64,000 nt of DNA. Origin: Croceicoccus sp. YJ47. GTDB lineage: Bacteria; Pseudomonadota; Alphaproteobacteria; Sphingomonadales; Sphingomonadaceae. The notes beneath the pieces are model-generated. The model had not been told where the DNA came from. It did not search any database and saw only the letters and a program-made list of their open reading frames with translations. The translations under genes were made by a program, and so were the position numbers. The first letter of the stretch is position 1. Every line of letters begins with the position of its first letter. This document shows positions 1-41,605 of the stretch, piece after piece. The stretch spans positions 1,120,501 through 1,184,500 of the forward strand of contig NZ_CP067087.1 in NCBI RefSeq assembly GCF_016745095.1, in the 5' to 3' direction.

Positions 1-492
1 GGCCTCGATCCGATTGAGCATATCAATCGCTTTCGGCAAAACCTGCGGTTCGAGCTTCCTGACAGGATGAAGGCGCTCGTTTATCCTATCGACCAGATAG
101 GCGAGATAGCCGTTGCCTGATCCGCGCGCGAGACCCAGATAAGCCGCGGCCAGGCGGTCGGGATAGGTATCAGAAGAGGGTTGATCATCTCTTTGGGCCT
201 CCGTCGAGGTGTTTTCCGACAATGAAGTTTCGAGAAGCAGCGCATTCACATTGAGGATATCCCGCAAAGCTTGCTCGGTCAGGACATGAACCCGGAACCC
301 TTCTCCGGGGGTCAGGTCGACTAGGCCTTCCCCAACGAGCTGGTTCAGGCTGTCCCGTACGGGCGTCATGCTCACTCCGAAGTCGTCGGCGAGCCGCATT
401 GCCTCCAGCTTCGTTCCGCCTCGCCATGCTCCCTCCATCAGTGCCCGCTTGAGGCGGCAATAGGTGGGTTCGAGAACGTGCGCGGGGCTCAC
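1..492 (-). CDS. GntR-family transcriptional regulator (3' end cut by window edge)
   Basis: The first 164 codons are present and the gene continues past base 1. A winged helix-turn-helix is readable near residues 20-65, including the GntR-typical segment SMTPVRDSLNQLVGEGLV. The remaining visible part would be the effector-binding helical domain, which is incomplete, so the subfamily (FadR or other) cannot be settled. The start is taken as GTG at 492, because it overlaps the stop of the PhyH gene in a GTGA arrangement and so suggests translational coupling. As the last visible member of the luxI operon it may regulate that operon or genes for metabolism of a PhyH product. This is inference from position. 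Confidence 0.85.
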   Translation of the reverse strand, partial: MSPAHVLEPTYCRLKRALMEGAWRGGTKLEAMRLADDFGVSMTPVRDSLNQLVGEGLVDLTPGEGFRVHVLTEQALRDILNVNALLLETSLSENTSTEAQRDDQPSSDTYPDRLAAAYLGLARGSGNGYLAYLVDRINERLHPVRKLEPQVLPKAIDMLNRIEA

Positions 493-1355
493 GACCGATA
501 ACGCTGCGCTTCGGCAAATTCGCGAACGGCATCCTCCTGGTCCGGACGCAGGCCATCGGTAGCCTGCGGATAATCGGGCACATCGCCGCGAAGAAGGATC
601 GAAGGACATTGCCCCTCAAAATTTCCGAGATTGGGGCGATGCTGGATATATCCCGCCAGCTCGGCGAGCTCAGGCGAGAAGGTTTTGGCGATCTGTGGCG
701 GATAAGCTAGCCAGAGGTTTTCATAGGGTTTGAGCCAGCCGAGGCTGTAACCGATCACGACGCCGCGTCGGACTGTATTCGTATGATTTGGCCCGGCACC
801 GTGCACGGTCGATCCTAGGAAGCAGATCGCGTCTCCGGGTCCGCATTCGGCCACTATCGGATCATCGAGTTGATCGAGACTTTCGATCACTTGCTTGTGC
901 GTACCGGGATATATGCGCGTTGCGCCGTTTTCGGCGGTGAACTCGGTGAGCGGCCAGATGACGTTGAGGAGATATTCGTGATCGCCTTTGCGGCCTGCCC
1001 ACATGTCGTGATCGCAATGCGGAAATTGTTCGATCTCTCCGGGATGGATGGCGATGGCCTGCGCGACATTAAGCTGGATCTTGTCGCAGGCGTCGCCGAG
1101 TATTTCCCGAGCGATTGCCAGGACCAGAGGCTGGAGCACGAGATCGCTCGCCCACCGTGACCGGCGTAGCAATCCCCCGAAACGCTGGGTCCGGCGCCCG
1201 TAGAAGTCGCCTTTGCCCGTCGGCGTTTTCTCGAATGCATCTTCAAGGTCCGCATCGAGCCCGGCTATAGTGGCATCGGGCATCAGGCGAGGGATTATGC
1301 AGTAGCCATCGGACCGTAGTTGCTCCAGCCATGGGGTGTGCGCTTTGTCGGTCAT
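489..1355 (-). CDS. Phytanoyl-CoA dioxygenase (PhyH) family protein
   Basis: This 288-residue protein has the PhyH-type Fe(II)/2-oxoglutarate oxygenase pattern. The HxD metal pair appears in FPHCDHDMW near residue 110, and the distal His and the Arg that would bind 2-oxoglutarate appear in HGAGPNHTNTVRRG near residue 185. The family hydroxylates varied small molecules and lipids, and the substrate here is unknown. Its ATG overlaps the luxI stop by 4 bp (ATGA), so it is translated from the quorum-sensing transcript. luxI-phyH pairs are known in sphingomonads. A role in making or modifying a signal or secondary metabolite is inferred from this coupling. Confidence 0.9.
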   Translation of the reverse strand: MTDKAHTPWLEQLRSDGYCIIPRLMPDATIAGLDADLEDAFEKTPTGKGDFYGRRTQRFGGLLRRSRWASDLVLQPLVLAIAREILGDACDKIQLNVAQAIAIHPGEIEQFPHCDHDMWAGRKGDHEYLLNVIWPLTEFTAENGATRIYPGTHKQVIESLDQLDDPIVAECGPGDAICFLGSTVHGAGPNHTNTVRRGVVIGYSLGWLKPYENLWLAYPPQIAKTFSPELAELAGYIQHRPNLGNFEGQCPSILLRGDVPDYPQATDGLRPDQEDAVREFAEAQRYRS

Positions 1356-1978: not shown

Positions 1979-2154
1979 TGGGTCCACCTGCAAGATTGAT
2001 GACAGGCGGCATCTCAACAAATTCATTCAATTACAGACATACCAAGAACTGGGGATGGGGTTTCCTCGATTTACGCAATGCAACGCGAGTTCTCATCGCT
2101 CGGGCGACGGGTTATCGAAAATAGCGGAGGAACGCTGTGTTATTGCCAGTGGAT

Positions 2155-3091: not shown

Positions 3092-3875
3092 TCAGTGCGT
3101 TTGAAAAGAGCGGAGCCGGCTTTGGCGAAGCAAGCCGAGATAGCCGTGCGACGCCATTCGCCGCGCCTCAACCACGAGACGCTGGGTCTGGCGGCGTTGC
3201 GATGACGATTTCCAGTCAATGGCGCGCTGCGCGGACAATCCCCGATAAACAATGGTTCCAGCGATATCTTTTAGCATAACACCCTCAGGCGCCCGGGATA
3301 AAGCATCAAGTATGGCGAGCAGCAAGTGGAAGCGGTGGGACTGATAGGCAGTGGGCTGCAACTGGTTTCGCACGCTGGGAGCAGCGGAACCATCTACACA
3401 GCAGTGAAACGCATCGAGCGCCGCCAGCCTGATCGGAAACGACTGGTCCCGAGGGATCAGATAATTGTCTCCACCCAACCGGGCGGAGGCCATAACGAGC
3501 AGCCGATGGCGAGCGCCACCACCGGCGAGGACCAGATGATCTCCCGCATTGCTGGTTCGCTTGGAGATCAGGTCGCACGTTGCGCGCGCCGCCTTGACTG
3601 CGCGCCCACCGCCAAGAATTACCACATGAGCGTTTTCCTCGGCTTGCCAGATCGCCGGATGGCTGCGAGCTGAAAGGTCGGGATCAATCGGGAAATTCAA
3701 GGCCCCATGAACGCGCCATTCGGCGGCAAGCTGGGGATTGCGGGTCGAAACCGCTTTCGCTGGCGATCCGTGCGTATTGTTGCCGGTACGCGGCATTGCG
3801 GCGCAGGAATTCCTGCGCGAAATCCGAATAGTCGAATGCGCCTGTCCGGTCGTTGCTGTCAAATGGTCGATCCAT
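3092..3875 (-). CDS. fseA-like: FseA-like DUF6499/DUF2285 activator made by a +1 frameshift
   Basis: Two overlapping frames encode one protein. Frame one starts at ATG 3875 behind AGGAGG and gives a 63-residue DUF6499-type segment (DYSDFAQEFLRRNAAYR) ending WGLEFPD-stop at 3684. The following frame carries on with IDPDLSARSHPAIW and a complete DUF2285 domain ending near SQRRQTQRLVVEARR, stopping at 3092. A +1 slip at the TTT codon (3693-3695) gives a fused product of about 260 residues. In ICEMlSym(R7A) the msi172-msi171 pair is joined by the same tRNA-Phe UUU-to-UUC slip to make FseA, the quorum-controlled activator of the excisionase gene. Placement beside luxR/luxI fits that role. A decayed gene is the alternative. 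Confidence 0.85.
3684..3695 (-). other. Probable programmed +1 ribosomal frameshift site
   Basis: On the minus strand the zero frame reads TTT CCC GAT TGA. A Phe tRNA on TTT can re-pair one base forward on TTC, after which CCG ATT GAT CCC continues the DUF2285 frame. The slow CCC codon in the A site and a stop two codons later match the known logic of +1 sites and the FseA site in particular. Confidence 0.7.
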
Positions 3876-3952: not shown

Positions 3953-3964
3953 CCCAATATTGGG
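3953..3964. promoter_or_regulatory. Palindrome upstream of the FseA-like gene; candidate LuxR box
   Basis: CCCAATATTGGG is a perfect 12-bp palindrome whose near edge is 78 bp upstream of the fseA-like ATG. LuxR-type proteins bind symmetric sites upstream of the genes they activate, so this is the best candidate in the island. No second copy was seen between luxR and luxI. The rest of the gene-free stretch 3876-4283 shows nothing else I can name. Confidence 0.4.
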
Positions 3965-4283
3965 CATATTTGATCAGGCGCTCGCCGAGACCGTTGCTTT
4001 CTTAGGGAAGGCGACGACCGCCGCCACAAGCGGGTCCAAAACGGCTCTACTTACCTCTTGCAAGCCATTCCTATGTTGGGCAGATTGACAGCGCGCGGAT
4101 TGATATTCTGGCACCATCCGCGTGGATCTTTCCGCCGGACATCATGCACGCCGGTCCATCGCAGGCCCGGCGGCCGGACCGATCAAGGGGCACAAACTAG
4201 GCCCCGGACGGCGGCACAGACCTGGAACCCGCACGCAGTTCGCCACGGCGAACTCAGGTTGCGGTCGCCTCCAAGTTCGAAGC

Positions 4284-4865
4284 ATGACTCAAATTGCCGC
4301 CGAAATTCGGCACCAATCTCCCCAGTGCGTGGGTCCCGCATATTGCGCTGCAAAGGTAAGCCGAACGGTCGGTCGCCGCCGCACACTCGATGCCCTCTAC
4401 CGCGAGGAACGGGCTGGACTGATCGCCTATCTTGCGCGCCGCGTGGGCTCCGAACGCGCCCGCGACCTGGCACAGGACGTGTTCCTGCGTGCGGCGACCA
4501 GCAAGCAGCTGACGGAACTCGTCAATCCGGCGGGCTTTCTGAGGCGGATTGCATTCAACTTGATGGTGGACGAGGCGCGGCGGCAAAAGTGCCGGGTCAG
4601 GACCCAGCCACTTCTGGAGAACGCAGACGCGCCAAGCCGTGCTGCGCAAGAAGATGCCGTGCATGTCCGTGAAACCCGGCAAGCGCTGGAAATCGCGCTC
4701 GCAGAGCTCCCCGAAAAGTGCGCGCGTATCTTCGCGATGAACCGCTTCGAGAAGAAATCCTACCGAGAGATACATATCGAACTCGGCATCGCACTGCCGA
4801 CGGTCGACTATCACATGATGAAAGCTCTTGCGCATTTGCGTCAAGCGCTGGGTCACAGTTGGTGA
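4284..4865 (+). CDS. ECF-type RNA polymerase sigma factor of the lasso peptide cluster
   Basis: A 193-residue sigma-70 family protein. Region 2 reads LYREERAGLIAYLARRVGS...ARDLAQDVFLRA near residues 38-75, and region 4 has the HTH in KKSYREIHIELGIALPTVDYHMMKAL near residues 155-180. This pattern is that of FecI-type ECF factors that control TonB receptors. No FecR-type anti-sigma gene is adjacent, which is unusual. The start at ATG 4284 gives a normal N-terminus, although the ribosome site is weak. It is followed 120 bp later by the TonB receptor and is likely to drive the receptor, the isopeptidase and possibly the lasso operon. Confidence 0.85.
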   Translation: MTQIAAEIRHQSPQCVGPAYCAAKVSRTVGRRRTLDALYREERAGLIAYLARRVGSERARDLAQDVFLRAATSKQLTELVNPAGFLRRIAFNLMVDEARRQKCRVRTQPLLENADAPSRAAQEDAVHVRETRQALEIALAELPEKCARIFAMNRFEKKSYREIHIELGIALPTVDYHMMKALAHLRQALGHSW

Positions 4866-4900
4866 CTGCAGGCATCCGGCCAAAAGGGACCACTCAAAAT

Positions 4901-4920
4901 TTAATTTCAATTGAAACTAA
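4901..4920. promoter_or_regulatory. AT-rich palindrome between sigma factor and TonB receptor
   Basis: TTTCAATTGAAA is a perfect 12-bp palindrome (4905-4916). It extends to 20 bp with one mismatched pair. It lies 66 bp before the receptor start, in a GC-rich background. A repressor or activator operator is a reasonable guess; nothing identifies the protein. Confidence 0.35.
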
Positions 4921-4985
4921 GGTGCTCGCAAAAGTGAGCGTCATCTTCTGTAGCGGTAGGTCCGCGCCAAAACAGGGAGATATCA

Positions 4986-7340
4986 ATGTCGTCGACAATT
5001 CGCACACTTTCCGTCCTTCTAACCGGGGCAGCATTTGCAGGTGCCGCTCCTCCTCTTTTCGCCCAAGACAGTCCAGGCGAACAGGCACAAGATGACGCTG
5101 CCGAGGTTGGCGATACAGCTTTGGACGAAGAGAGTTCCGCGATCGTTGTCACGGGAACGCGTATCCGAGGCGCACGGGTCGTAGGTGAAGTCATCGAGCT
5201 TGATCGCGAGACGATCGTCGAGACGGGCCAGGTGGACCTCGGCGAAGCGATCCGCAACCTACCCCAGAATTTCTCGGGCGGTCAGAACCCTGGGGTTGGT
5301 TCGGGCGGCGGCATCGGCAATGAAAATGTAAATTCAGCATCGACTCCCAATCTGCGCGGGCTTGGGCCCGATGCGACGCTGACATTGCTCAACGGTCATC
5401 GCCTTCCATACAACTCGGCGTCCCAGGGCGTCGACATCTCCGCCATTCCGCTCGCCATTGTCGACCGGCTCGAGGTCGTCCCCGATGGAGCTTCAGCGCT
5501 CTATGGCTCGGACGCGGTTGGCGGCGTTGTGAACGTCATCCTGCGCCGCGACTTTGAGGGCGTGACAACCTCGGCCCAGATTGGAGCGAGCACCGATGGA
5601 GGCAACTTTCGCCAACAGGCCGACATAGTCGCAGGCACAATCTGGAACAGTGGCGGCTTCGTCTTCGCCTACGACTTCGCGAACAATTCCGGGATTGAGG
5701 CGAGGGAGCGCGCCTATGCAGGATCACTGCTACCGGAAACCTTGCTTTATCCCTCAAACCGGCGCCACGCCGTAACATTTTCGGCGCACCAGAGCTTGTC
5801 AGAAGGCGTGGAGGCCAATCTCGACGCGCTCTATTCGTATCGCGAATCAACCACCATTGATGGCACGCCGGCCCAGCGCATTCGGCGTGAGCCCGACCTC
5901 GAGACCTTTTCCGTAGCGCCGTCGCTGCAGTTCGACCTTGGGCCGAGTTGGAAGGCCAATCTCGCGGGTGTCTTCGGGCGCGATCGAACCCGCTTCCAGA
6001 CCAGTTTCATTCCAGAGACAGGTCCGGCGCGCGTCTCTACGGGAAGCTACCTGCATCAGATCACCTCGCTGGAAATGGGTGCGGAAGGCCCGGTCGCCAC
6101 TCTTCCCGGCGGCGAGACGCGCTTGGCTGTCGGCATCGGATTTCGTAACAATCGACTCGAGTACTCTCTGGAAAGCGCGATCCTGAATGCGCAATTCGAT
6201 GCAACGCAACGGGCACGCTTCGCCTACGCGGAACTGTATGTTCCATTCATGTCGGGTCGGAACGCCGTCGATGGAATCGAGCAGCTAACGCTATCCGCTG
6301 CAGTTCGCTACGAAGACTATCCCGGACTCGACCAGCTCGCCACCCCGCGCCTTGGGATTACCTATTCGCCAGGTGGTGATCTGATGTTCAGAGCGAGTTG
6401 GGCACGCTCGTTCAAGGCTCCCACGCTTTACCAGCAAAACATCTTTTCTCAGGCCATTCTGGTGCCTGCTGCGGCGTTCGGAGCGGGCACCGGCTCCGAC
6501 ACAGTGTTTCTGAGCGGGGGCGGCAATCCCAACCTCCGTCCCGAGCGCGCCCGAAGCTGGACGGCGGGAGTCGAGGTCCAGCCTGCAGCGGTCCGAGGAT
6601 TGACCGCCTCCGCGACTTGGTATGATATCCGCTATGACAACCGCGTCGTTGCGCCGATCGCTGGATCGATCGCAGCTGCTATCAACAATCCGGGATATGC
6701 CAGCCTCATCGATTTTTCACCTGATCCGGCCGATTTGGCCGAACTCATCACGGGTGCCCAGTTCGGATTGGAGAACTTCACAGGCCGCCCGTTCGATCCT
6801 GCAGACGTTGTCGTTCTGTTCGACAACAGGAACATTAATGTCGCGGCGTGGAGCGTAGAAGGGCTGGATGCCAGGATTGCCTGGAACCGCGATCTCGGGA
6901 ATGACCGCTCGATAGCATTGGATCTCAACGGCAGCTGGTTGCGCAGCAGGCAAACCATCACATCCGAACTACCTGAAGTCCAGCTTGCCGGTACGACTTT
7001 CAACCCGCCCCGCTACCGCGCGCGTGGAGCAGCAAGATATCGGGCAGGCCGCCTTACCGCCAATGCGGCAGTCAGTTATATCGGTGCGCTCGTCGACAGA
7101 CGGCTTGCAACCGTGCAGCGGCTGTCACCAAGCGCAACTGTCGATCTTGGCATGCACTATGCGGTCATTCGGGGAGACGGCCGTGATCCCGGTCTTGAAT
7201 TCTCGTTGACCATTCAAAACCTATTCAACGATAAGCCGGACGTGATCGGCCAAACCGGTCCCAACACAACACCCTACGATTCAACCAACTATTCTCCGAT
7301 CGGGCGCTTCATCGCGTTTGGCGTGAGGAGGCATTGGTAA
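4986..7340 (+). CDS. TonB-dependent outer-membrane receptor, probable lasso peptide transporter
   Basis: A 784-residue receptor with a signal peptide (SVLLTGAAFAGAAPPLFAQ). A TonB-box-like segment IVVTGTRIRG follows near residue 55, then the plug with PDGASALYGSDAVGGVVNVILRR near residues 160-185. A long beta-barrel ends in GVRRHW, with a C-terminal aromatic as expected for barrel assembly. The start has a GGGAG ribosome site. In proteobacterial lasso clusters a receptor of this kind takes the mature peptide back across the outer membrane. The adjacent isopeptidase, joined by a 1-base stop/start overlap, supports this. The ligand is inferred. Confidence 0.9.
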   Translation: MSSTIRTLSVLLTGAAFAGAAPPLFAQDSPGEQAQDDAAEVGDTALDEESSAIVVTGTRIRGARVVGEVIELDRETIVETGQVDLGEAIRNLPQNFSGGQNPGVGSGGGIGNENVNSASTPNLRGLGPDATLTLLNGHRLPYNSASQGVDISAIPLAIVDRLEVVPDGASALYGSDAVGGVVNVILRRDFEGVTTSAQIGASTDGGNFRQQADIVAGTIWNSGGFVFAYDFANNSGIEARERAYAGSLLPETLLYPSNRRHAVTFSAHQSLSEGVEANLDALYSYRESTTIDGTPAQRIRREPDLETFSVAPSLQFDLGPSWKANLAGVFGRDRTRFQTSFIPETGPARVSTGSYLHQITSLEMGAEGPVATLPGGETRLAVGIGFRNNRLEYSLESAILNAQFDATQRARFAYAELYVPFMSGRNAVDGIEQLTLSAAVRYEDYPGLDQLATPRLGITYSPGGDLMFRASWARSFKAPTLYQQNIFSQAILVPAAAFGAGTGSDTVFLSGGGNPNLRPERARSWTAGVEVQPAAVRGLTASATWYDIRYDNRVVAPIAGSIAAAINNPGYASLIDFSPDPADLAELITGAQFGLENFTGRPFDPADVVVLFDNRNINVAAWSVEGLDARIAWNRDLGNDRSIALDLNGSWLRSRQTITSELPEVQLAGTTFNPPRYRARGAARYRAGRLTANAAVSYIGALVDRRLATVQRLSPSATVDLGMHYAVIRGDGRDPGLEFSLTIQNLFNDKPDVIGQTGPNTTPYDSTNYSPIGRFIAFGVRRHW

Positions 7341-9487
7341 TGACTGCGCTCTTTGCGCTAGCGCTCAGCCTGACGATCGTGCCGACAGCTGAAGATCCGC
7401 CATCGGCCGAAGATCCGTGTGATGCACTGCCGGTCGCCCCGGAAACGGCAAATGCGGAGTTAGGTGAGTGGACAGTGGACGGACAAGTCCGGATTGCGGA
7501 TATTGGCGCACCGGTCGGAACTCCCAACCGAAGTGTATTTGGTATCTCGCCTGACGACAGCCAAATCGCCTTCACCGTCCGTCGCGCAATTCCCGAGACG
7601 AATAGCTATTGCCAAAGATTGCTGGTCGCGCCGTTGAGCGGCGAAGGTTCTCCAATCGAGGTGGCGCGCGGCGGGGAATTCATTCGCGACGATTTCCGGC
7701 TTCGCGACTTCACCGCGATACTGGCGGGTTGGCCTAGGACGAGCGCGCCGCGATGGTCGCCGGATGGCATGCGGATTGCGTATCTGAGGAGAGAAGCCGG
7801 TTCGACACAGGTTTGGTTGGCCAGCCCAACCGGGCAAACGGGTGCGGTCCGAGCAACCAATCTGGCCGACGATGTCGACGATTTCGCCTGGGCTCAGGAC
7901 GGAATGGGTCTCATTGTCAGCACAAGACCTGCAATTCGCCTCGCCGCCGCGGCAATCGCCAGCGAAGGCAGACGCGGATTTCTCTTCGACGCGCGGTTTG
8001 CGCCGCAGGCAGCCGACCGACCGATACCGACCGGTCATGCCGATCCGGTCTATACATGGGTTTCGCTTCGGGACGGGTCATCGCGACCTGCAACCGAAAT
8101 GGAGCAGGTGCTTATTGCCCCGCCGCGACCGGCAGCGATACCGGACAACGCACGAAATGTTCGATCAGGAGAGGGCGGATTTTCGGCCTGGCTCGAAGCA
8201 GAGTTCCCCGAGCGTCTCCTCAGCCCGACGCGGCTGGTTCTGGCCGCTCCGGACGGCAGCCGAAAAGTCTGCCCTGTCACGCAATGCGACGGCATCCGAG
8301 AACTGTTCTGGTCGGCCTCGGAGCGCGCCCTTTTCCTCGTCCAGCGTACTGGATGGGCCGACAGCCAGACGGCATTGTTGCGCTGGGATCCCCGCGATGC
8401 TGCGCCTCGCCAAGTCCTGATTTCCGATGATGTGTTCATCGGGTGCGCCCCTCATGCCAAGGAACTTATTTGCGGGCGTGAGGGCAGCACACAGCCTCGC
8501 CGATTAGTGGCGCTCGACATGCGAACGGGATCAGAACGACTGATCCACGATCCAAACCCGCAGCTTGAGAACATGGAGTATGGCTCCGTCCAGCGTTTCC
8601 GCTTCCGCCTGGCAAGCGGTGTCGAGAGTTTCGCCGACCTTGTCCTGCCGCCCACTCATCGACCTGGCGAACTGCATCCCCTGATCGTGGTGCAGTACCG
8701 GAGCCGGGGCTTCCTTCGCGGAGGAACCGGGGACGAGGTTCCGATCCAGCCTCTCGCCGCACGCGGATTCGCGGTCCTCAGTTTCGACCGGCCTGATTTC
8801 CCGCCAGAGGCGTATCTGGCAACAACCGATGCAGAAATACGGACATTGAGCGAAGATGACTGGGCGGACCGGCGCCAGGTGCAGGAAGCACTAGAGCTCG
8901 CTGTACGACGCGCCGTCGAGACTGGTGCGGTCGATCCAACGCGCATGGGGATCAGCGGATTCAGTGATGGCGGATCGACCGTCCAGTGGGCGCTGATCAA
9001 CTCGGACCTTTTCCAGGTCGCTTCGATGGGATCGTGCTGCGAGGATCTCTACTCCTTCGCTCTCGCTGCAGGGCCACGGTTTACCGAGTATTTGCGGGAC
9101 ATGGGTTATCGCTATTTCGAGCCCGGTGCCGAAACATTCTGGGAGCCCATGTCGCTCATACTCAATGTGGACCGGATCGATGTTCCAATTTTGATCCAGG
9201 CAGGGGACAGCGAGTACGAAGGCAGCCTCGATGTCGTTGAAACCTTCTCGCATAACAATAAGGCTATCGAACTCTACGTGTTCCCCGATGAGTCTCATGT
9301 CAAATGGCAATCGTCGCATCGCCTGGCGATGTACGAGCGCGTCGTCGAATGGTTCGAGTTCTGGCTTATGGGCAGGCTGAACTGCAATCCTTCAAGAGAA
9401 GCACAGTACGCCCGCTGGAGCGCCATGGAGGGTGCCCCGCCCACACGCGACCTTCGCTGCCATGCTGAACCATTAGCGGGTCCATGA
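7340..9487 (+). CDS. Lasso peptide isopeptidase (S9 prolyl-oligopeptidase fold)
   Basis: A 715-residue protein with a signal-like N-terminus (LFALALSLTIVP), a beta-propeller-like middle and a C-terminal alpha/beta hydrolase domain. The nucleophile motif is GISGFSDGGS near residue 538. An Asp in AGDSEYEGS and a His in DESHVKW complete the triad. Size and context match Atxe2-type isopeptidases, which open the lasso ring by cutting the isopeptide bond. I chose ATG 7340, which overlaps the receptor stop in TAATG and has GAGGAGG upstream. Its 3' end overlaps the convergent cyclase gene by 15 bp. A general dipeptidyl aminopeptidase would look similar; the cluster decides the call. Confidence 0.88.
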   Translation: MTALFALALSLTIVPTAEDPPSAEDPCDALPVAPETANAELGEWTVDGQVRIADIGAPVGTPNRSVFGISPDDSQIAFTVRRAIPETNSYCQRLLVAPLSGEGSPIEVARGGEFIRDDFRLRDFTAILAGWPRTSAPRWSPDGMRIAYLRREAGSTQVWLASPTGQTGAVRATNLADDVDDFAWAQDGMGLIVSTRPAIRLAAAAIASEGRRGFLFDARFAPQAADRPIPTGHADPVYTWVSLRDGSSRPATEMEQVLIAPPRPAAIPDNARNVRSGEGGFSAWLEAEFPERLLSPTRLVLAAPDGSRKVCPVTQCDGIRELFWSASERALFLVQRTGWADSQTALLRWDPRDAAPRQVLISDDVFIGCAPHAKELICGREGSTQPRRLVALDMRTGSERLIHDPNPQLENMEYGSVQRFRFRLASGVESFADLVLPPTHRPGELHPLIVVQYRSRGFLRGGTGDEVPIQPLAARGFAVLSFDRPDFPPEAYLATTDAEIRTLSEDDWADRRQVQEALELAVRRAVETGAVDPTRMGISGFSDGGSTVQWALINSDLFQVASMGSCCEDLYSFALAAGPRFTEYLRDMGYRYFEPGAETFWEPMSLILNVDRIDVPILIQAGDSEYEGSLDVVETFSHNNKAIELYVFPDESHVKWQSSHRLAMYERVVEWFEFWLMGRLNCNPSREAQYARWSAMEGAPPTRDLRCHAEPLAGP

Positions 9488-11199
9488 GCGAGCCCAATTC
9501 TCGGCTTCGAGCAGGTCAAGTATGCGACCGAACATGCTGTTGTCGTCTCGTTCATCAGTGCGCAGCGCGGCTTCCACGGCATGGCGGTCGATTACCCCGT
9601 TCGCGGCGAGCAACCCATCCAGCAAGCGCTCGGCGATCGAATTTCGGTTCAGGGCGAAAATTTGCCTTACGAAGCTGTCGGGTCCGGCCTTCGATGTTCT
9701 GGCCAGCACGGCAGGCGGCAATTCCTGTGCGAATGCCGCCCGGGCCAAAGCGCGGTTCCTGCCGCCGTGTGCCCATATCCAAGTCGGAACACCGAGACAA
9801 AACTCCATGAGCGGCTGACTCATTAGTGGCGAAAATCGAGGCGGGCCGGCGGCCAGTCCATGAATGTGGTTCTGTGCCCGCATGATCAGGACCATATGGT
9901 CGCGTTTTCCCGAACCTGAGATCCCTAGAGGACTCAGCCAGGGCACGAGTGGCTCGCTGTACGCAGCGTCAGTTCCGCAGGTAAGCAGACTCGCATCGAC
10001 CGGCCAGCTTTCCCTCGTTCCCTTACCAAGCCGTCTGCGAAGAACTGCGGCGACCATGGTGGGGACCGAGCATCCGGTGATATGGCACATGTCAATCAGG
10101 GAGCGCAGCACGCCTGTCCCCAGACCCTCCGCTGCCAGCCGGTCGGCTACCGGCGCAGAGGAATGGAGGAAACAGAACAGATTGTCGCCTCCGTTGCCAT
10201 CGTAGATGACCGAGGCGCCGAGGTCCGCCATCGCATCGACAAGCAAGGCGTCAAGAATGTGCTGGAATGAACGTCGGGCCGGTCGCGGCAACCCCCGGGA
10301 GGAAGACCTCGAAGGATCGTAAAACGCCGGGTCGTATATCCGTTCGACACACCGAACCCCGAACCATTCCGCCACGCGATTGGCGTATATGCGCTCGTCG
10401 CCGGACGGATCCGGAGTGGCGAGAGTAACGCAATCGAAGCGTTCGCCCGAATGGGCCAGAGCAGCGCAAATGAATGACGAATCGACGCCGCCCGATGCCG
10501 CTACGCTTGCTCTTCAAACATGCCGCTCCAGCTTTGCAGCACTGCGGCGCCGAGCTCCTTCAGTTGCGCGGCGTAATCCGTGAATGCCGGGATCGGCATT
10601 CGTGGGAGAAAGTCGGTTGCATGCCATATCCTACGGATCTGCAAACCCTGGCGCGCGAGTAAATGCAGCGATCCAGGCGCGAGTTCGTCAATTCCCTCAA
10701 GACACGTTTTCCGGTGGCGTTGTTCAGGCCGTAGCAGGTGCGCGTGCAGCGCCGGGTACGAAACCGGCGTCTCCAATCCTCCCGCTTCCGCAATCAGGAG
10801 CGGGTCACTGGTCAGTATGACGTGCTCGGATGTGGAGAGAAGGTAAACGGGCAAGAGTCCGGAAGGATCGACCAGCACACCCATTGGCCCATTGCTCCAA
10901 TCGCCTAGGATGGCGACATATCCACCCCAGACGTTGGCGACGAGATGCTTGGCGGCCTCCTCGGCTTCGGCCGGGGCCAACCCGAGTTCCTCGGCGGCGC
11001 GCACGCGGCGATATGTCGTTCGGGAAAAAGCGATCCCGATCAGGCAGCACTGTCGGTTCAGGAAATGGCAGGGCGTTTCGCTGTCACACCACAAGGCCGC
11101 GACATCGGAACAAACCTGACCCGGGGTTGCAACGATTGACGGCAAGATTTGGCCGTTCGCGCCATGAGGAACCGCAAGAACAAAACGTAGCGGTCTCAT
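9473..11199 (-). CDS. Lasso peptide cyclase (asparagine synthetase-like C protein), apparently frameshifted
   Basis: The N-terminal part (11199-10501) resembles the amidotransferase half and ends FEEQA-stop. The C-terminal synthetase half continues in the -1 frame, with the PP-loop SGGVDSS at about 10476 and YDGNGGDNLF further on. Adding one base near 10503 gives a single protein of about 575 residues, normal for lasso C proteins, with the usual 11 residues between the Trp of SWSGMF and SGG. This enzyme would adenylate the core Asp8 side chain and close the macrolactam. The start overlaps the B gene stop by 4 bp. Either the gene is broken, or the base loss is a sequence error, or a rare -1 shift restores it. 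Confidence 0.85.
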
Positions 11200-11810
11200 A
11201 CGACAAGAATTGGTTCATAGCGGAGCACTTCTTCGACACTGTCGTTCAAGACCGTGTCTCGGTGCTGCGTCCAGCAGTGTGCTGCAAAAGGGGGTGTATG
11301 GACGCCGATGACGATCCGCGCCCGGTCGCCATATGCGGCAAGACAAGTCGCGAGAGCGATGGAGCGCGAAAGACACCGGTCCGCAGCGGTGCGCAACAAT
11401 CGTGCATCCTCAAAAGCCCCGATACACCTGCGTCCCTTCTCACTGATCTCGAATTGGCTTTCCGACCTGGATTCGACAACGCTCCGTAATTGGGAAAGGA
11501 CCAGCGCCAAAGAGTGTTTCGCGAGCCGCGCTTCAACGCGGCGTTGCATCCAAAGCGCTCTCGCGACTGCGGGCAGACTAAAGGTGTGCTCGGCGATTGC
11601 CGGGCTCGATTGTTCTGGGACGGTCCAGTCCGCAGGCCGGGCGAGGCTGCTCGGTTGGTGCCATTGCTTCTCGGGATACCGGCCAAGTTTTTCGAGACAT
11701 CTGCGATTTTCGTCATCCGACAACCGAAAGTAGCGATCGTTGGAAACATCGAGAAATAGGAGCTGGCCATCCAAAATGCGCCACGCCAGTCCTTCGCGGT
11801 GGAGATCCAT
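11196..11810 (-). CDS. Lasso peptide B protein (leader recognition plus transglutaminase-like protease)
   Basis: A protein of 204 residues from ATG 11810. A GTG at 11858 would add 16 residues. The first 80 residues resemble the RiPP recognition element (LAWRILDGQLLFLDVSNDRYFRLS). The C-terminal half is the cysteine-protease domain, with Cys in ADRCLSRSIALATCLAAYG, His in PPFAAHCWTQH and Asp in VLND. Such fused B proteins bind the leader and cut after the conserved Thr-x pair so that the cyclase can act. It lies between precursor and cyclase genes on one strand and overlaps the cyclase start by 4 bp. Confidence 0.9.
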   Translation of the reverse strand: MDLHREGLAWRILDGQLLFLDVSNDRYFRLSDDENRRCLEKLGRYPEKQWHQPSSLARPADWTVPEQSSPAIAEHTFSLPAVARALWMQRRVEARLAKHSLALVLSQLRSVVESRSESQFEISEKGRRCIGAFEDARLLRTAADRCLSRSIALATCLAAYGDRARIVIGVHTPPFAAHCWTQHRDTVLNDSVEEVLRYEPILVV

Positions 11811-11872
11811 CGATTGGGAGCCCGAATCGGCGGGTCGCGCGGCAGGATTGCGCCGCACGGCCCGCCGAGGAC

Positions 11873-12010
11873 TTATTCGTCGAGCAGGCCCGGGCTGTTG
11901 GCCAATTGCCCGCCGCTGGCGTCGATGTAGAAACCGACGGCGCCCTTGGTCTCAACCGAGGCCTTGCCGAGGTCGATAACCTCATTCTGGTTATGGTCGA
12001 ACTCCTTCAT
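11873..12010 (-). CDS. Lasso peptide precursor
   Basis: A 45-residue peptide starting MKEFDHNQNEVIDLG, with an AGGAG site 6 bases before ATG. The leader would be 22 residues and ends ETK, putting Thr at -2, the conserved lasso position. The predicted 23-residue core begins GAVGFYID and ends PGLLDE, so Gly1 can be joined to the side chain of Asp8 in an 8-residue ring with a 15-residue tail. Asp8 is the only acidic residue in the 7-9 range. The gene is directly upstream of the B and C genes. The mature peptide's activity is unknown. Confidence 0.88.
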   Translation of the reverse strand: MKEFDHNQNEVIDLGKASVETKGAVGFYIDASGGQLANSPGLLDE

Positions 12011-12339: not shown

Positions 12340-12576
12340 TTATTGTTTGGATAGTGCGCGCGATCCTCTGCGTGCCTTGGCAAAATCCCGGTCACTTGCA
12401 ACAAAGCGCTCGATCATCGGCGGAATAAGCAGCTCAGGCACAGGCGCACCCTCTGATACCCCGCCATTGAGCACGGTCCCATATTCGATCAGCCGGCGAT
12501 GGAGCCGGGCAGGGATTTCGATCGTTAACTTTACAGGCTTGCCATCGGTAATGTCGGAGAGCTTGAGCCGGGTCAT
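12340..12576 (-). CDS. DUF2274 domain protein of the trb operon
   Basis: A 78-residue protein with the DUF2274 pattern (KLSDITDGKPVKLTIEIPARLHRRLIEYG). It overlaps the trbI stop by 4 bp and is the last gene of the conjugation operon, its usual place in alphaproteobacterial ICEs. The function is unknown. The segment resembles small RHH-like DNA-binding proteins, but this is only an impression. Confidence 0.85.
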   Translation of the reverse strand: MTRLKLSDITDGKPVKLTIEIPARLHRRLIEYGTVLNGGVSEGAPVPELLIPPMIERFVASDRDFAKARRGSRALSKQ

Positions 12577-13751
12577 GCTCCACCCTCCAGCACAATATCG
12601 CGCGTCACCAGCACCCGCACGGGAAAGCCGGGGCGGATCGTCAGCGTCGGGCGGATATCAAGCTCGCGTGCAACGACCTGCTCGCCCGCGCGATTGATGC
12701 TGTCCTGACTGCCGCGGCGAACAGCGCGCAGCAGGTCATCATCTCCGCCTGCGCCAAGCTCGCCGCCAATCCCGAGCAAAGTGGAAACGAGCGCCGCCTT
12801 GACGACACCGCCCCAATGGTAATCGACGCCGTCTTCCAGTCCGGCATAGCCCGACGGATCGGCGACTGGCTGACGATCCAGCACGATCGAGCGACCATCG
12901 GGCAGGATGAGCCTGTTCCAGGCCAGCAGTACCCGGCGTTGCCCGAACCCGACATCGGAATCGTATTCGCCGATCAGGCGCGCACCCTGCGGGATCAGAA
13001 GATGCCGCCCCGTCGGGCTGTCATAGATATTCTCGGTCACCTGCGCGGTCACAAGGCCGGGCAGGTCTGAGCGGATGCCGGTGATCAGCGCTGCCGGAAT
13101 GATCGACCCGGCGTGAAGCAGCGCGCCAGATGGCACCGCCTCAAGCCGCTGCACGGACGCTGTCCGCGTGTCGGCAGGCCGTTCTAGAAAACTTGCCCGC
13201 GCGGTCGAGACGGAAGGCTGAACTGGTGCTGCGGGTTGCGGCCCAGCGCCCGAAGCTGCCGGACCGGAACTGGCAGCTTGTGTCCCGCCGCCGAAAAACA
13301 GGCGACTGCCGCGCGCCGCCTCGCGTTCCTGTTCTAGGCGTTCGCGCTCTATCTCTTCAGGGCTCGGCGCGGCCCGCTGTGGCGGAACCGGAGGCGGCGC
13401 GCCGACAGGGGGCAGCGCGGCAATGGCACCGCGATCCTGCGCCTCGAGGATCGGTTGACCGAGATCGCCCGGCAGCGGTGGCCCTAACCTGGGAACCTGG
13501 GAATAGTCTGCCGGGGCTGCGGCAAGTCCGTCTGCCACAGCAATCCCGTCGGTGTTGACCAGCTCTTCGCCGCCGTCCTGTGAAGGCGGCTGCAGGGCAT
13601 AGAGCAATATACCGCCAAGAACGGTCAGACCCGCGGCGCTGGCAAGGCCGATAGCCTTGCGTGAGAGCCTGACCACGCGCGGTCCTTCCCCGCGCAATTG
13701 AACGATGCTTTCGGCATCGGGTGACGGCTCGGTCTTGCCTTCCTCTTTCAC
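12573..13751 (-). CDS. trbI: Conjugal transfer protein TrbI (VirB10 family)
   Basis: A protein of 392 residues with one transmembrane segment near residues 33-52 (AIGLASAAGLTVLGGILLYAL), a Pro/Ala-rich periplasmic linker, and the VirB10 C-terminal domain (GSIIPAALITGIRSDLPG, IPQGARLIGEYDSDVGFGQ, LNRLILPDGRS-like). VirB10 proteins span both membranes and form part of the secretion-channel core with VirB9 and VirB7. The start is GTG, overlapping the trbG stop in GTGA. It lies between trbG and the DUF2274 gene. Confidence 0.95.
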   Translation of the reverse strand: MKEEGKTEPSPDAESIVQLRGEGPRVVRLSRKAIGLASAAGLTVLGGILLYALQPPSQDGGEELVNTDGIAVADGLAAAPADYSQVPRLGPPLPGDLGQPILEAQDRGAIAALPPVGAPPPVPPQRAAPSPEEIERERLEQEREAARGSRLFFGGGTQAASSGPAASGAGPQPAAPVQPSVSTARASFLERPADTRTASVQRLEAVPSGALLHAGSIIPAALITGIRSDLPGLVTAQVTENIYDSPTGRHLLIPQGARLIGEYDSDVGFGQRRVLLAWNRLILPDGRSIVLDRQPVADPSGYAGLEDGVDYHWGGVVKAALVSTLLGIGGELGAGGDDDLLRAVRRGSQDSINRAGEQVVARELDIRPTLTIRPGFPVRVLVTRDIVLEGGA

Positions 13752-14737
13752 GACCGGCCCCGCTTGCGGTTTTCAATCTTCACGCGGACCTGTCTGCGAC
13801 CGGCACCCAGGCGCAACTCGGCCTTATGGAAGAGGCGGTCGACGATGAGATAGCGCCCAGAGACCCGGTAATTGACCAGCTCGGCTGCGCCATCCGCGCC
13901 CACCACGAAAAACGGCGGCATTTCGCCCTGGGCGATGTCGGGTGGAAACTCGACCAAGGTCCGCTGTCCGTCGTCGAAGACACGAACGGGCCGCCAGTCA
14001 GGCTTATCTCCCGAGATGCGGTAATCGAAATTGAGCGCCTCCAGAGTGAATCCTTCGGTGACCGGTGCGGCTCGTGCCGCTCGCTCTTTTTCGCGGCGCA
14101 GCGCGATCAGTTCGTCTGCCGGATAGGACCAGCTGACCGAGGCCATATAGATGTTCGGGTTGGCGCGCAGTTCGATGTGATAGGTGCGGCGGTCGGTATT
14201 GATGACCAGATTGGTGGCGATATCGGGCCGCGTCGGTTTGATGAGGATATGCACACGTTGCGTCGCCCCCGAGCCGCTCAGCGTGTCACCGATCATCCAG
14301 CGCACGGTATCACCCGCAGCGACCGGTCCGGGGCCAACCAGCGTTTCGCCTTCCTGCAAGGCAATGTCGGTGACCTGCCCGGGCTTGGCGTAGACCTGGA
14401 ACAATGCACCTTCGCGATAGGCATAGCGCTGGATGGCATTGTCGAATCCTGCATTGTCCGGTTCGATCCTGGCGGCCTCATTCGCCGCCCCCACATGCCC
14501 CTCGGGGTCAGAGGCAGGGGAGCGGCGCGCGGCAGTGGGGGAGGCCTGCCGCGAGGGGGTGGTGGCATATGCAAGGGCCTGAACAAGGCGGGATGCATCG
14601 GCGAAGTCGATGGCTGCGATCGCCCGCGATGCGGCCTGTGCCTGCGGCGCAGGCGTCGCTGCCGCCGGCGATCCGGCAAAGAGCAGAACGCCCGCTGCGA
14701 GCAGCGCCGGACGGGAGAATTCAAGAAAGTGGGTCAT
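13748..14737 (-). CDS. trbG: Conjugal transfer protein TrbG (VirB9 family)
   Basis: A 329-residue periplasmic protein with a signal peptide (PALLAAGVLLFAGSPAAA). The VirB9/CagX domain shows YREGALFQVYAKPGQVTDIALQEGE, RTYHIELRANPNIYMASVSWSYP and the C-terminal FVVGADGAAELVNYRVSGRYLIVDRLF. It would build the outer-membrane ring of the T4SS core complex with TrbI. Its ATG shares one base with the trbF stop, so the two are translationally linked. Confidence 0.95.
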   Translation of the reverse strand: MTHFLEFSRPALLAAGVLLFAGSPAAATPAPQAQAASRAIAAIDFADASRLVQALAYATTPSRQASPTAARRSPASDPEGHVGAANEAARIEPDNAGFDNAIQRYAYREGALFQVYAKPGQVTDIALQEGETLVGPGPVAAGDTVRWMIGDTLSGSGATQRVHILIKPTRPDIATNLVINTDRRTYHIELRANPNIYMASVSWSYPADELIALRREKERAARAAPVTEGFTLEALNFDYRISGDKPDWRPVRVFDDGQRTLVEFPPDIAQGEMPPFFVVGADGAAELVNYRVSGRYLIVDRLFHKAELRLGAGRRQVRVKIENRKRGRS

Positions 14738-15417
14738 CAGCCAAGCTCCTTTGACCAGTTGATCGATGTGACGAAGATTCCGAGCGGATTGCTGGTGAGC
14801 GCGTCGGGTGTTCTGGGAGGCTGGACGGCAATGCCGAGAATGGCGGTCCAGCGAGTGGTTTCGGCGAGCGCGCCGTCACGGTAGCGCCGCTCGACCCAGG
14901 CCACGCGGAAGCTGCGCGGCGAGGCGCGGATCACGCTGGTGACATCGACCGCCACCTGTTCGCGGCCGATCGCTGCGAACGGGTCGTTGGCCCGCGCATA
15001 ATCGTTGAGCGCCAAGGCACCCTTGTCGCTGGCGAACTGGTAGGCTCTGAGCCAGTTCTCGCGCACCACAATTGGATCGTCGGGGATAGCGCGGACATGC
15101 TCGATAAACCGGGCGAGGTGAAAGGCGATCTGCGGATCGGTCGGCTCGTAATCCGCAGCGGCGGGAGCGACGGTGCGAGCCTCGCCCAGCCTGTCGACCT
15201 CGACCACCCAGGGCACGATGGTACCGCGCGCATTCTGCCACAGGAGGCCGCCGGTCAGCACGGCGGACAGGCCGAGCGCGCCGAAAAAGGCGTAGCGCCA
15301 GCTCTTTGCCTGGACGCGCGCGGAACCGATGCGCTCGTCCCAGACCTGCGCCGCGCGCTGGTAGGGCGTCTCTGCTTGAGGCGTCTTTGCGTACCGGATC
15401 GAAGGCCGTTTGAACAT
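14737..15417 (-). CDS. trbF: Conjugal transfer protein TrbF (VirB8 family)
   Basis: A protein of 226 residues from ATG 15417 (MFKRPSIRYAKTPQAETPYQ). A longer frame starting at 15516 would overlap trbL and has no family resemblance. It has one transmembrane segment near residues 36-55 (YAFFGALGLSAVLTGGLLW) and a periplasmic NTF2-like VirB8 domain. VirB8 proteins assemble the inner-membrane part of the T4SS. It sits 7 bp after trbL. Confidence 0.95.
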   Translation of the reverse strand: MFKRPSIRYAKTPQAETPYQRAAQVWDERIGSARVQAKSWRYAFFGALGLSAVLTGGLLWQNARGTIVPWVVEVDRLGEARTVAPAAADYEPTDPQIAFHLARFIEHVRAIPDDPIVVRENWLRAYQFASDKGALALNDYARANDPFAAIGREQVAVDVTSVIRASPRSFRVAWVERRYRDGALAETTRWTAILGIAVQPPRTPDALTSNPLGIFVTSINWSKELG

Positions 15418-15424
15418 TGTAAAG

Positions 15425-16738
15425 CTAATCCTTCTCTTTGGTGTCGATGGAAGCGCCTGCGCCGGAGCCGTCGCCGGCACGCACGGTGTGGGCGGCAAGC
15501 GAGGCCGAATGGCCAAGGCTCTGCCTGTGCTTCATGGACCGCGCCCAGGCTGGCGGGCCGTTTGTCTGTTCGGAATCCGGTGACGAAGCACCGGAAGCGG
15601 GCACGATGCGCCCACCCATATTCCCGACCGACGCTCGTGCGCCGTCGCGGAAGTTGCTCTTGGCGCTGTCTGTCGCCTTGCGCAGCGGCGACATGGCGGC
15701 ACCGCCTGCTGCGCGGCCAACACCGGCCATTCCGCCTGCGACGGCGGCGCCGCCGCTCTTGCCCGCCGAACCGGTCGCATAGGCCATGGTCGCACCTCCG
15801 GCGGCGCGCGAGGTGCCTCGCGCGACGGAAGAGGCTGCACTGGCGACCGCGCCGCCAGCGAGCTTGGCACCGGCCACGCCGCCGACCGCAGCGCCGCCTG
15901 CCAGAAGCGCGGTGCCTGCGGCAGCGCCTGCGCCGAGCTGCGGACCGCCCGCGACAATGCCATTGGCGATCCCCGGCCCGAAAATGCCGAGACCAAGCAG
16001 GGTGAGGCTGGCGAGCACGATGGCCAGCGCATCCTCGATGGTGGGCTCGCCGGGGATGGCGCCGGTGAACTCGGCGAAGAGCGTCGAACCGATGCCGATG
16101 ATGACGGCGAGAACGAGCACCTTGATCCCCGACGAGACCACATTGCCGAGCACGCGTTCGGCGAGGAAAGCGGTCTTGCCGAACAGCCCAAAGGGAATGA
16201 GCACGAAACCCGCCAAGGTCGTCAGCTTGAACTCGATCAGGGTCACGAACAGCTGGATGGAGAGAATGAAGAAGGCGATGATGACAATCGCCCAGGCGAC
16301 AAGCAGGATGATGATCTGCAGAAAATTCTCGAAGAAGCCGACATAGCCCATCAAATCGGCAATCGATTCGAGGAGCGGCCAGGCGGCATCGATGCCAACC
16401 TGCGCCACCCTTCCCGGCTGCAACAGATCGCCCGCGCCGAGCCCCGAACCGCTCGCCTTGAGGCCAAGCCCGGCGAAACTGTTGAACACGATGTTGGCGA
16501 GCGCGCTCCAGTTGCCGATGATGTAGGCAAAGATCCCGACAAAGAGCGTCTTCTTGACGAGCCGGGCGATGATGTCGTCGTTCGCGCCCCAGCTCCAGAA
16601 CAAGGCCGCCAACGTGACATCGATCACGATCAGCGTGGTCGCGATGAACGCCACCTCGCCCGAAAGCAGCCCGAAGCCGCTGTCGATATATTGCGAGAAG
16701 ATCGCCAGAAAGCGATCGACGACGCCGGTGCCGCCCAT
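15425..16738 (-). CDS. trbL: Conjugal transfer protein TrbL (VirB6 family)
   Basis: A 437-residue inner-membrane protein. Several hydrophobic segments fill the first 280 residues (for example VAFIATTLIVIDVTLAALFW and IIILLVAWAIVIIAFFILSI). A Gly/Ala-rich low-complexity stretch and a polar tail follow. VirB6 proteins line the inner-membrane channel for DNA. The low-complexity tail is usual for TrbL and may explain the long meaningless frames on the other strand. Confidence 0.95.
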   Translation of the reverse strand: MGGTGVVDRFLAIFSQYIDSGFGLLSGEVAFIATTLIVIDVTLAALFWSWGANDDIIARLVKKTLFVGIFAYIIGNWSALANIVFNSFAGLGLKASGSGLGAGDLLQPGRVAQVGIDAAWPLLESIADLMGYVGFFENFLQIIILLVAWAIVIIAFFILSIQLFVTLIEFKLTTLAGFVLIPFGLFGKTAFLAERVLGNVVSSGIKVLVLAVIIGIGSTLFAEFTGAIPGEPTIEDALAIVLASLTLLGLGIFGPGIANGIVAGGPQLGAGAAAGTALLAGGAAVGGVAGAKLAGGAVASAASSVARGTSRAAGGATMAYATGSAGKSGGAAVAGGMAGVGRAAGGAAMSPLRKATDSAKSNFRDGARASVGNMGGRIVPASGASSPDSEQTNGPPAWARSMKHRQSLGHSASLAAHTVRAGDGSGAGASIDTKEKD

Positions 16739-16739
16739 G

Positions 16740-17066
16740 TCAGTCCTCCCCTCTCGCTTCGCCGGAAGAGGACTCAGGCAGCGCCCGATCGCCGATCCCG
16801 GAATAAGCCTCGGGGTGATCGACGCCGAAGAAGCGGCGGCGCTTCTCGGCCCAGGCGTCGCGGCAATCGGGCGAGGACAGCGCCAGTTCGCCCATTTGAG
16901 CGCAAACCCTCAGCTGGGCCGGCAGCGGATCGCCGTCGGGCACCCATATGCGCCGGTCGGCTTGCCGCACCGGTGCGGGCTCCTCGCGCAGCTGTACGAT
17001 CGTCATCGCGATGGCGAGACCGACGAACACAGCGGCACCGATGCGCGCGAGAAGCTTGGTGTCCAT
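16740..17066 (-). CDS. trbK: Putative entry-exclusion protein, TrbK-like
   Basis: A 108-residue protein with an N-terminal transmembrane segment (IGAAVFVGLAIAMTIVQL) and a short periplasmic part with two Cys (VCAQMGELALSSPDCRDAW). Position between trbJ and trbL and this layout fit the alternative TrbK family found in alphaproteobacterial ICEs. TrbK proteins stop a cell receiving a second copy of the same element. The family call is by context and pattern. Confidence 0.75.
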   Translation of the reverse strand: MDTKLLARIGAAVFVGLAIAMTIVQLREEPAPVRQADRRIWVPDGDPLPAQLRVCAQMGELALSSPDCRDAWAEKRRRFFGVDHPEAYSGIGDRALPESSSGEARGED

Positions 17067-17072
17067 CGCGGA

Positions 17073-17819
17073 TCAGTCCGATCCGCCGGGCAGATAGCGC
17101 GGACGAATAGCGAGAAACCGCCTCAGCTGTTCGCGCGCCTGTGCCTTGGCCGCCGCGCGTTCGGCCGCATCGAGCGCCTGCGCCCTGCCAGTAGCGGCGA
17201 GCGTGGCGGTCAGGTCGGCCAGCTGGCGGGCCTGCAATGCCAGCAGCTGGTTGCCAGCCTGTGCTGCCTGCAAGGCACCCGTGGCGGACTGGCTCGCCGA
17301 AACGAGGCTGCCGAGCGCTTCGCGCGAACCGTCGATATTGGCAACTGTGCCCGCCTGGACCTTAAGAGCATCTTCGAAGGCCGCCACGCTGTTTTGCCAG
17401 CGCGCCTCGGCGCCGTCGACCATCGCCTGCTGCGAGGCACCGAGCGGAACGTTCTTGTAGTGCAGGTCGAAAGCGCCCTCGATGGTGCGGACATCGTAGG
17501 CGATGCGCTGGGCTTCGTTCAGCAGTCGCTGGGTCTGCTGGATCTGATCCTGCAAGGGCTGCACGAGCGTGAGCGGCAGGCTTTCGAGGTTTCTCGCTTC
17601 GTTGATGAGCGAGTCCGCCTGGTTCTGGAGCATGCGGATCTGGTTGTTGATCTGCTCGAGCGTGCGCGCGGCGGTCAGCACGTTCTGCGCGTAATTGGAC
17701 GGATCATAGACGATCCCGCCGAACTGGGCGTGTGCGGGCGATGATACCAAGGCGCTCGTACTCGCCATGGCGAGCGCGGTGCCCATGGCGATGCTGCGGA
17801 CAATTTGTCGAGAGGTCAT
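17073..17819 (-). CDS. trbJ: Conjugal transfer protein TrbJ (VirB5 family)
   Basis: A 248-residue periplasmic protein with a signal peptide (IAMGTALAMASTSALVSSPAHAQ), then helical segments starting VYDPSNYAQNVLTAARTLEQINNQIRMLQNQ, typical of TrbJ. VirB5 proteins sit at the pilus tip or base and aid contact with recipients. Its ATG overlaps the trbE stop by 4 bp. Confidence 0.95.
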   Translation of the reverse strand: MTSRQIVRSIAMGTALAMASTSALVSSPAHAQFGGIVYDPSNYAQNVLTAARTLEQINNQIRMLQNQADSLINEARNLESLPLTLVQPLQDQIQQTQRLLNEAQRIAYDVRTIEGAFDLHYKNVPLGASQQAMVDGAEARWQNSVAAFEDALKVQAGTVANIDGSREALGSLVSASQSATGALQAAQAGNQLLALQARQLADLTATLAATGRAQALDAAERAAAKAQAREQLRRFLAIRPRYLPGGSD

Positions 17820-36037: not shown

Positions 36038-36055
36038 ATCGCATCTCCTGACGCT

Positions 36056-36085
36056 TGTATAAGCATCATATGACGCGTTTGTCAA
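36056..36085 (-). promoter_or_regulatory. Sigma-70-type promoter of the antitoxin-toxin operon
   Basis: The minus strand has TTGACA (36085-36080), an 18-bp spacer and TATACA (36061-36056), ending 18 bp before the antitoxin ATG. The spacer contains the symmetric CATATG. TGACGC is repeated at 36049 and 36071, so an autoregulatory operator may overlap the promoter. Confidence 0.6.
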
Positions 36086-36111
36086 GGTTTCCTGTGCAAG
36101 CGCTGCGTTCT

Positions 36112-38019: not shown

Positions 38020-38098
38020 GTAAGCGTCCGGTATCGGCACCTGATTTCCGGGGTGCAATTTTCGTCCAGCGGGTGTTCTCGTGGTGGCTGGAGGTTGC

Positions 38099-39207: not shown

Positions 39208-39264
39208 AAAACTGCCTGAAACCGGCGCGAAACCGGCAGAAAAGCTTGAGAAAATGCTGCTCTT

Positions 39265-41601: not shown

Positions 41602-41605
41602 GGAA

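Follow-up and report, generated by a model that had tools for sequence, protein, structure and literature searches.

The locus analysed here, in a stretch of 64,000 nucleotides from Croceicoccus sp. YJ47 (hereafter the window), poses two questions: do a pair of minus-strand reading frames lying next to luxR and luxI together encode one regulator made by a programmed frameshift, and if so, what would that regulator switch on?

A regulator gene split at a TTT codon

Working along the minus strand from its 5′ end, we see a 63-amino-acid frame that matches DUF6499 (positions 3684–3875; PF20109, E 9.6e-16) and ends WGLEFPD-stop, followed in the +1 frame by a match to DUF2285 (3092–3692; PF10074, RovC_DNA-bd, E 4.2e-20), which stays open down to position 3092. 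The junction, on the minus strand, reads TGG GGC CTT GAA TTT C CCG ATT GAT CCC; that is, a TTT codon at 3695–3693 followed by a C at 3692 whose omission gives a protein of 260 amino acids. The exact join by a +1 slip at TTT-C that a sequence-only reading had described is thus confirmed, with both halves matching their Pfam domains. In the window genome, a single contig of 3.35 Mb, PF10074 (at E up to 0.001) and PF00765 (luxI) each match once.

An N-terminal DUF6499, a C-terminal DUF2285 and a +1 site between them bear out the proposed membership of the FseA-type family, and the window gene is, as judged from its sequence, an FseA-type split gene—hereafter fseA. The frameshift is already known as a kind, since the published family (4,709 curated members) mostly needs it, in about 61% of cases (PMC10359603). 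A profile of 13 fused proteins, drawn from the 102 loci described below, matches RovC (PDB 6xz5) over both domains with an E-value of 2.3e-16, and QseM (7uqt) weakly (E 0.0043); a single fused protein compared with solved structures by phmmer found no match. RovC is a distant relative and itself activates a type VI secretion system (PMC10359603). Across the alignment of the 13 proteins W57-G58-L59, F61 (at the junction) and W221 are invariant, and D190 nearly so.

How general the split is can be judged from a survey of 199 genomes of the same bacterial family, 61 of which together hold 102 matches to PF20109; the surroundings of all 102 were read, usually up to 8 kb per side or as far as a contig end allowed (under 6 kb on one side for 13 of them). 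Seventy-nine are split by +1, 19 are in a single frame and four are unclear or cut, the class of two loci (L127 and L107) having been changed manually. Every one of the 79 split genes has TTT as its slip codon (78 TTT-C, one TTT-T), preceded by TGGGGG in 62 and by TGGGGC, the form found in the window, in 15. TTT makes up 89 of the 312 Phe codons in 17 ORFs of the window, and the 14 of the 19 single-frame homologues read at the slip position have TTC in six cases, TTT in one and another codon in seven. The occurrence of TTT at the slip codon is therefore more than chance, the loci being related and hence not independent trials.

A second set, overlapping the first such that their counts are not additive, was obtained by searching named genomes with the LuxR of the window, which gave 27 loci. 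In 23 of these fseA lies directly upstream of luxR (cut short in L193), and all 23 are split at TTT (20 TTTC, three TTTT; L187 read by hand). As for the other four, L192 and L195 begin inside luxR, L194 is a distant match of 29%, and L189, from Erythrobacter sp. QSSC1-22B, keeps luxR-luxI-phyH-gntR with no fseA upstream.

One could suppose a broken gene, in which a single-frame regulator has been split by an indel of one base or by an error in sequencing; one extra base would look identical, and single-frame homologues make up 19 of the 102 loci. We regard this as very improbable, because the same codon carries the split in all five survey elements in which fseA comes first (type C, below; window included), whose fused proteins are as little as 45% identical, as well as in the 23 named loci; close relatives with an uninterrupted frame, looked for as evidence against a programmed slip, were thus not found in either set. 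Read in the +1 frame, moreover, the DUF2285 half has a dN/dS of 0.30 against the related element in genome G128; the value for the DUF6499 half is 0.88, from 14 changes, too few to tell. With 79 of 102 survey loci split, all at TTT, in addition to those of the named set, the split is no sequencing error.

The two frames might also give separate proteins that act unfused, the DUF2285 part serving for instance as an antiactivator resembling QseM, given that both frames are open and that translation could begin inside the DUF2285 frame. This, too, we think improbable, if less so than a broken gene: joining the frames restores the domain order of the single-frame homologues, and a TTT kept at every slip codon would be needless for separate genes.

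For the preferred reading, a +1 slip that fuses the two halves, the mechanism has a precedent in the FseA of the Mesorhizobium element ICEMlSym(R7A), which is reportedly made by a slip of tRNA-Phe from UUU to UUC. A slip from CCC to CCG after the TTT was considered and set aside as a general explanation, being possible at the 36 TTTCCC sites and not at the 32 TTTCGC sites; re-pairing at TTT (to TTC or TTT) would thus be the common denominator.

The conjugative element and its lux genes

To judge by the genes around it, the fseA-luxR-luxI-phyH block belongs to an integrative conjugative element (ICE) and occupies its integrase end. To the left lie a GntR-family regulator (1–609, minus strand, completed left of the window) and, beyond it, a Phage_integrase gene (genome positions 1119135–1120418). 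To the right we find genes for a sigma factor, a TonB receptor and an S9 peptidase together with lasso-type genes, then the trb conjugation genes including TrbI, TrbL and TrbE (12573–20278, minus); further right follow a NotI-type nuclease, the TraG/VirD4 coupling protein (32823–34817, minus), an Xre-RES pair, the relaxase (36112–37854, minus; DUF3363, with Relaxase just below cut-off) and an IS66 insertion, and finally a run of SLT transglycosylase, S26 peptidase, DUF2840, RPA and HTH_17 genes that is read leftwards from 44.4 kb. With integrase, relaxase, coupling protein and type IV secretion genes all present, the suggestion that the block belongs to a mobile element holds. No second copy of the left junction, as expected of an attL/attR pair, was found in the 139 kb read, nor any tRNA near the integrase by ARAGORN in L040.

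TrbE lies some 15 kb from fseA in four of the five type C elements (G000, G128, G004 and G164). In the fifth, G162, there is no TrbE nearby and the stretch corresponding to window positions 10657–33689 is absent (at about 14440 of L032), the fseA-luxR-lasso genes being kept at 99%. Several passengers can be seen in the window copy: the NotI-type restriction endonuclease gene (22209–23246, E 4.3e-102) and the Xre-RES pair (34918–36148), both inside the element, and the IS66 insertion (38081–40815, transposase E 8.3e-100), which sits between the relaxase and transglycosylase genes and may interrupt the transfer operon here.

The lux genes all lie on the minus strand and match their domains above cut-off: luxR (2155–2994; autoinducer-binding domain plus GerE), luxI (1352–1978; an AHL synthase whose start is inferred, the ORF being open from 2026) and phyH (489–1355; phytanoyl-CoA dioxygenase family), which overlaps luxI. 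From fseA to the end of luxI is about 2.5 kb, and the quorum-sensing genes do share one strand-uniform block with fseA, as first described. Within the survey a luxR, luxI or phyH homologue is present at 31 of the 102 loci (luxR at 30; L107 has luxI only), and we distinguish three layouts: type A, luxR-luxI-phyH-fseA (n = 12); type B, with luxR divergent from fseA (n = 14); and type C, with fseA first (n = 5 including the window), in two members of which luxI lies past the cargo. The gap between luxR and luxI, 128 bp in the window (2027–2154), measures 7.5–8.1 kb in G128 and G162 (L032, L033, L137, L138), where it holds what we read as mer- and ars-type genes. Since the luxR of these two genomes is 96–99% identical to that of the window and luxI only 68%, the gap is a site of recombination as well as of cargo, at which the signal gene luxI may have been exchanged against a constant receptor luxR.

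By comparison among loci we recognise putative LuxR-type boxes at two places, both noticed after aligning rather than predicted beforehand: CCCAATATTGGG (3953–3964, minus), centred 83 bp upstream of the fseA ATG, and CCCCAGTTCTTGGTATG (2038–2054, minus), centred about 67 bp upstream of the inferred luxI ATG; the tra boxes of R7A are at 69 and 67 bp (PMC5882170). Upstream of luxI the sequence CCCC[AT]GTTCTTGGTATGTC recurs in all five type C elements, in flanks that have otherwise diverged on alignment, and its core, with some freedom, in each of the 20 luxI promoters examined from the named set (those of L192 and L195, which also have luxI, are not among them). The fseA box is the more variable: its right arm, TGGGGA, is found 78–120 bp from the start used in 17 of the 18 fseA promoters examined among the 23 of the named set, the left arm varies, and L193 has a variant box. 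CCCAATATTGGG is the only exact CCCANNNNTGGG in the 64 kb, where 1.02 would be expected, and agrees with the consensus used at 12 of 16 positions, a score reached by 5% of 60 shuffles. Elsewhere the likeness between the two boxes is closer: in L188 the fseA box, TCCCAAGAACTGGGGA, agrees at every base with the reverse complement of the box before luxI in L184, and the fseA box of L108/L109 (G004/G164) matches the luxI box of L105 at 15 of 16 positions, reached by none of 60 shuffles; these shuffles, like the Fisher tests below, ignore the kinship of the loci. Boxes upstream of both fseA and the AHL synthase are thus present, on comparative grounds, as a switch of the R7A type requires. At the divergent type B loci no LuxR box precedes fseA by the consensus used, except for one site in L127. 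Some type A loci (L041, L042, L045, L110, L124, L129) carry another palindrome, for example CCGAGTAATCACTCGG, about as far upstream of luxI, which hints—for those type A loci read there—at a different LuxR specificity.

A candidate FseA target and the proposed switch

If the locus works as in R7A, FseA should act on an excisionase gene, and a candidate rdfS is found 40 kb from fseA: an HTH_17 protein of 90 amino acids (44093–44365, minus; domain match, E 1e-9) in an inferred role, followed by genes for an RPA initiator, DUF2840, an S26 peptidase (TraF-like) and an SLT transglycosylase (40921–44086, minus). Upstream of it lies a 28-bp inverted repeat, CGACAA-N16-GTGTCG (44453–44480, minus), which by comparison among elements we take as a candidate FseA box. 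The published box consists of two inverted hexamers, with a spacer of 15 or 16, upstream of rdfS (PMC10359603); ours agrees with it in length and spacing, a comparison that leaves the hexamer letters aside and involves an rdfS that is a candidate only, and it stands about 26 bp farther from the start codon than in the PrdfS sequences given in that paper. Like the LuxR-type boxes, it was noticed only after aligning. All five type C elements have the repeat, some 115 bp ahead of the HTH_17 gene, in one case with T for the first C; in G004 its contig is not the one that carries fseA. Six of 25 other HTH_17 homologues have, in the corresponding position, a changed form that is still paired, GGACA-N18/19-TGTCC; at the remaining 19 the repeat was not found in the form searched. 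An HTH_17 homologue starts about 0.9 kb after the DUF6499 start in 20 of 44 cases among the matches listed, from 27 genomes.

FseA could by now regulate cargo rather than transfer, for instance the adjoining lasso-peptide-type cluster (4122–12010), which comprises, besides the sigma factor, TonB receptor and S9 peptidase, asparagine-synthase-like and transglutaminase-like proteins and a 45-amino-acid precursor-like ORF (12010–11873). Lasso genes occur near the fseA-luxR block, on either side, in 20 of the 23 named loci; G162 has retained them together with fseA-luxR and without the trb segment; and a copy of the candidate FseA box with one mismatch lies inside a lasso gene, at 11234–11261. Set against this, the only exact copy in the 64 kb is the one at the HTH_17 gene (with one mismatch allowed there are seven matches in the window, 2.90 being expected), and TrbE is kept within the same distance in all type C elements save one. 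We therefore consider a role confined to cargo unlikely, albeit the least so of the three alternatives weighed here.

The reading we favour, to which we assign a probability of roughly 0.78, is that the locus is a transfer switch of the ICE in which LuxR-AHL and a frameshift-limited FseA would together drive the excisionase-like gene. The split frame, the conserved TTT, the gene order and the conserved operator-like sequences are what we observe, and each action step is predicted from them. AHL made by LuxI would bind LuxR; LuxR-AHL at the box before fseA would raise fseA and probably luxR, and at the box before luxI would provide positive feedback. The fseA mRNA would mostly yield the 63-amino-acid DUF6499 peptide, a minority of ribosomes slipping +1 at TTT-C to make the 260-amino-acid FseA, which would then bind the 28-bp inverted repeat 40 kb away and switch on the excisionase-like gene together with those downstream of it. 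The proposed working follows the R7A model minus QseM (PMC5882170, PMC11963761).

The antiactivator, and relation to known systems

QseM-like genes were sought with a profile of lone DUF2285 proteins, which found both of two control peptides. Such a gene lies within about 4 kb of fseA at 59 of the 71 lux-less loci, in 56 of them directly upstream and on the same strand (among the 12 without it, L085 and L093 are at contig ends), and downstream of fseA in nine of the 12 type A loci; the same profile found none at the 14 type B or the five type C loci, nor in the 139 kb surrounding the window, the G162 and G128 stretches or the 27 named loci. Comparing lux-less loci with types B and C (0 of 19), type A left out, gives p = 1e-11 by Fisher's test; a general rule that luxR means no QseM is contradicted by type A.

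With Pfam PF10074 at E up to 5, only fseA was found in G000, G128 and G004, at a setting that also gives weak matches in eight of 14 control genomes. Lone PF10074 copies adjoin other fseA genes in G114, G162 and G164, and a further lone match in G162, located elsewhere at 2482955, is weak and falls below cut-off (E 0.015); a search of the window's own genome alone with a QseM-like query, run without a control, gave no match. A very diverged antiactivator in the type C layout may have escaped these searches. As no QseM-like antiactivator was found in this layout, LuxR control and the frameshift appear to be its remaining brakes.

It has been suggested that the frameshift might act as a pause, letting QseM catch the nascent DUF6499 domain (PMC10359603). 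Among the 98 classifiable loci, split genes have a QseM-like gene nearby in 53 cases and lack it in 26, against 12 and seven for single-frame genes (Fisher p 0.79); with split or single frame showing no link to a nearby QseM-like gene, the purpose of the frameshift becomes directly testable. We give even odds to the idea that type C is a QseM-free branch of FseA, in which the antiactivator was lost, LuxR-AHL was recruited to the fseA promoter, independently of the other fseA genes linked to luxRI, and the frameshift was kept; if true, the frameshift would be a brake of its own and not mainly a pause for QseM.

The association with lux genes seems to have more than one origin. A maximum-likelihood tree built from 98 fused proteins places type A in one clade (99/97) and type C in another (100/99), the latter within a supported group of otherwise lux-less genes (97/94) and apart from types A and B. 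Most simply, fseA and luxRI-phyH would have been joined at least twice; a single gain of fseA-luxRI-phyH with later losses is the less simple alternative. The pair phyH-luxI also travels on plasmids: 35 records matched, both genes being annotated in 13 of 15 among the matches listed.

How far, then, does the layout differ from that of Mesorhizobium? In R7A, traR lies upstream of an operon of traI2, msi172-msi171 and qseM-qseC (PMC5882170, supplementary figure legend), such that genes for the receptor, a synthase-type protein and the frameshifted activator cluster there too; the difference claimed at the outset thus holds for details only. These are the order fseA-luxR-luxI-phyH in place of traR, traI2-msi172-msi171, a luxI with a full-length domain match, the presence of phyH, the lack of a detectable QseM, the adjoining lasso-peptide genes and the distance of 40 kb between fseA and the HTH_17 gene. 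Common to both are a DUF6499 and a DUF2285 united by a +1 frameshift (Msi172-Msi171 in R7A), LuxR-type control and a trb-type ICE (PMC10359603, PMC5882170, PMC11963761); in R7A, FseA activates the excisionase promoter via a 28-bp inverted repeat (PMC10359603), the repeat and its role being predicted here. The 71 lux-less loci share the FseA family with the window (split in 56), and have no luxR, luxI or phyH in the stretch read, of up to 8 kb. Sphingomonad luxR-luxI-phyH clusters have been described as topology T, with luxI adjoining phyH and luxR and sometimes virB genes (PMC4288048); the gene beside phyH is given there as hypothetical X, and the paper makes no mention of DUF2285.

The FseA family, the frameshift, quorum-sensing control and luxI-phyH neighbours are thus already known. 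Within the main text of open-licence PMC papers we found neither fseA with luxRI-phyH in sphingomonads nor a QseM-free version, and the QseM-less layout looks new, against a QseM-like gene near fseA at most lux-less loci. With the whole predicted circuit, a switch known from work on Mesorhizobium would be extended to bacteria of the erythrobacter and novosphingobium type, in which type C elements offer natural cases that separate the frameshift from the antiactivator. It also suggests that transfer switches can include the neighbouring luxI and phyH genes of sphingomonads, which have been in the literature since 2015 or earlier (PMC4288048).
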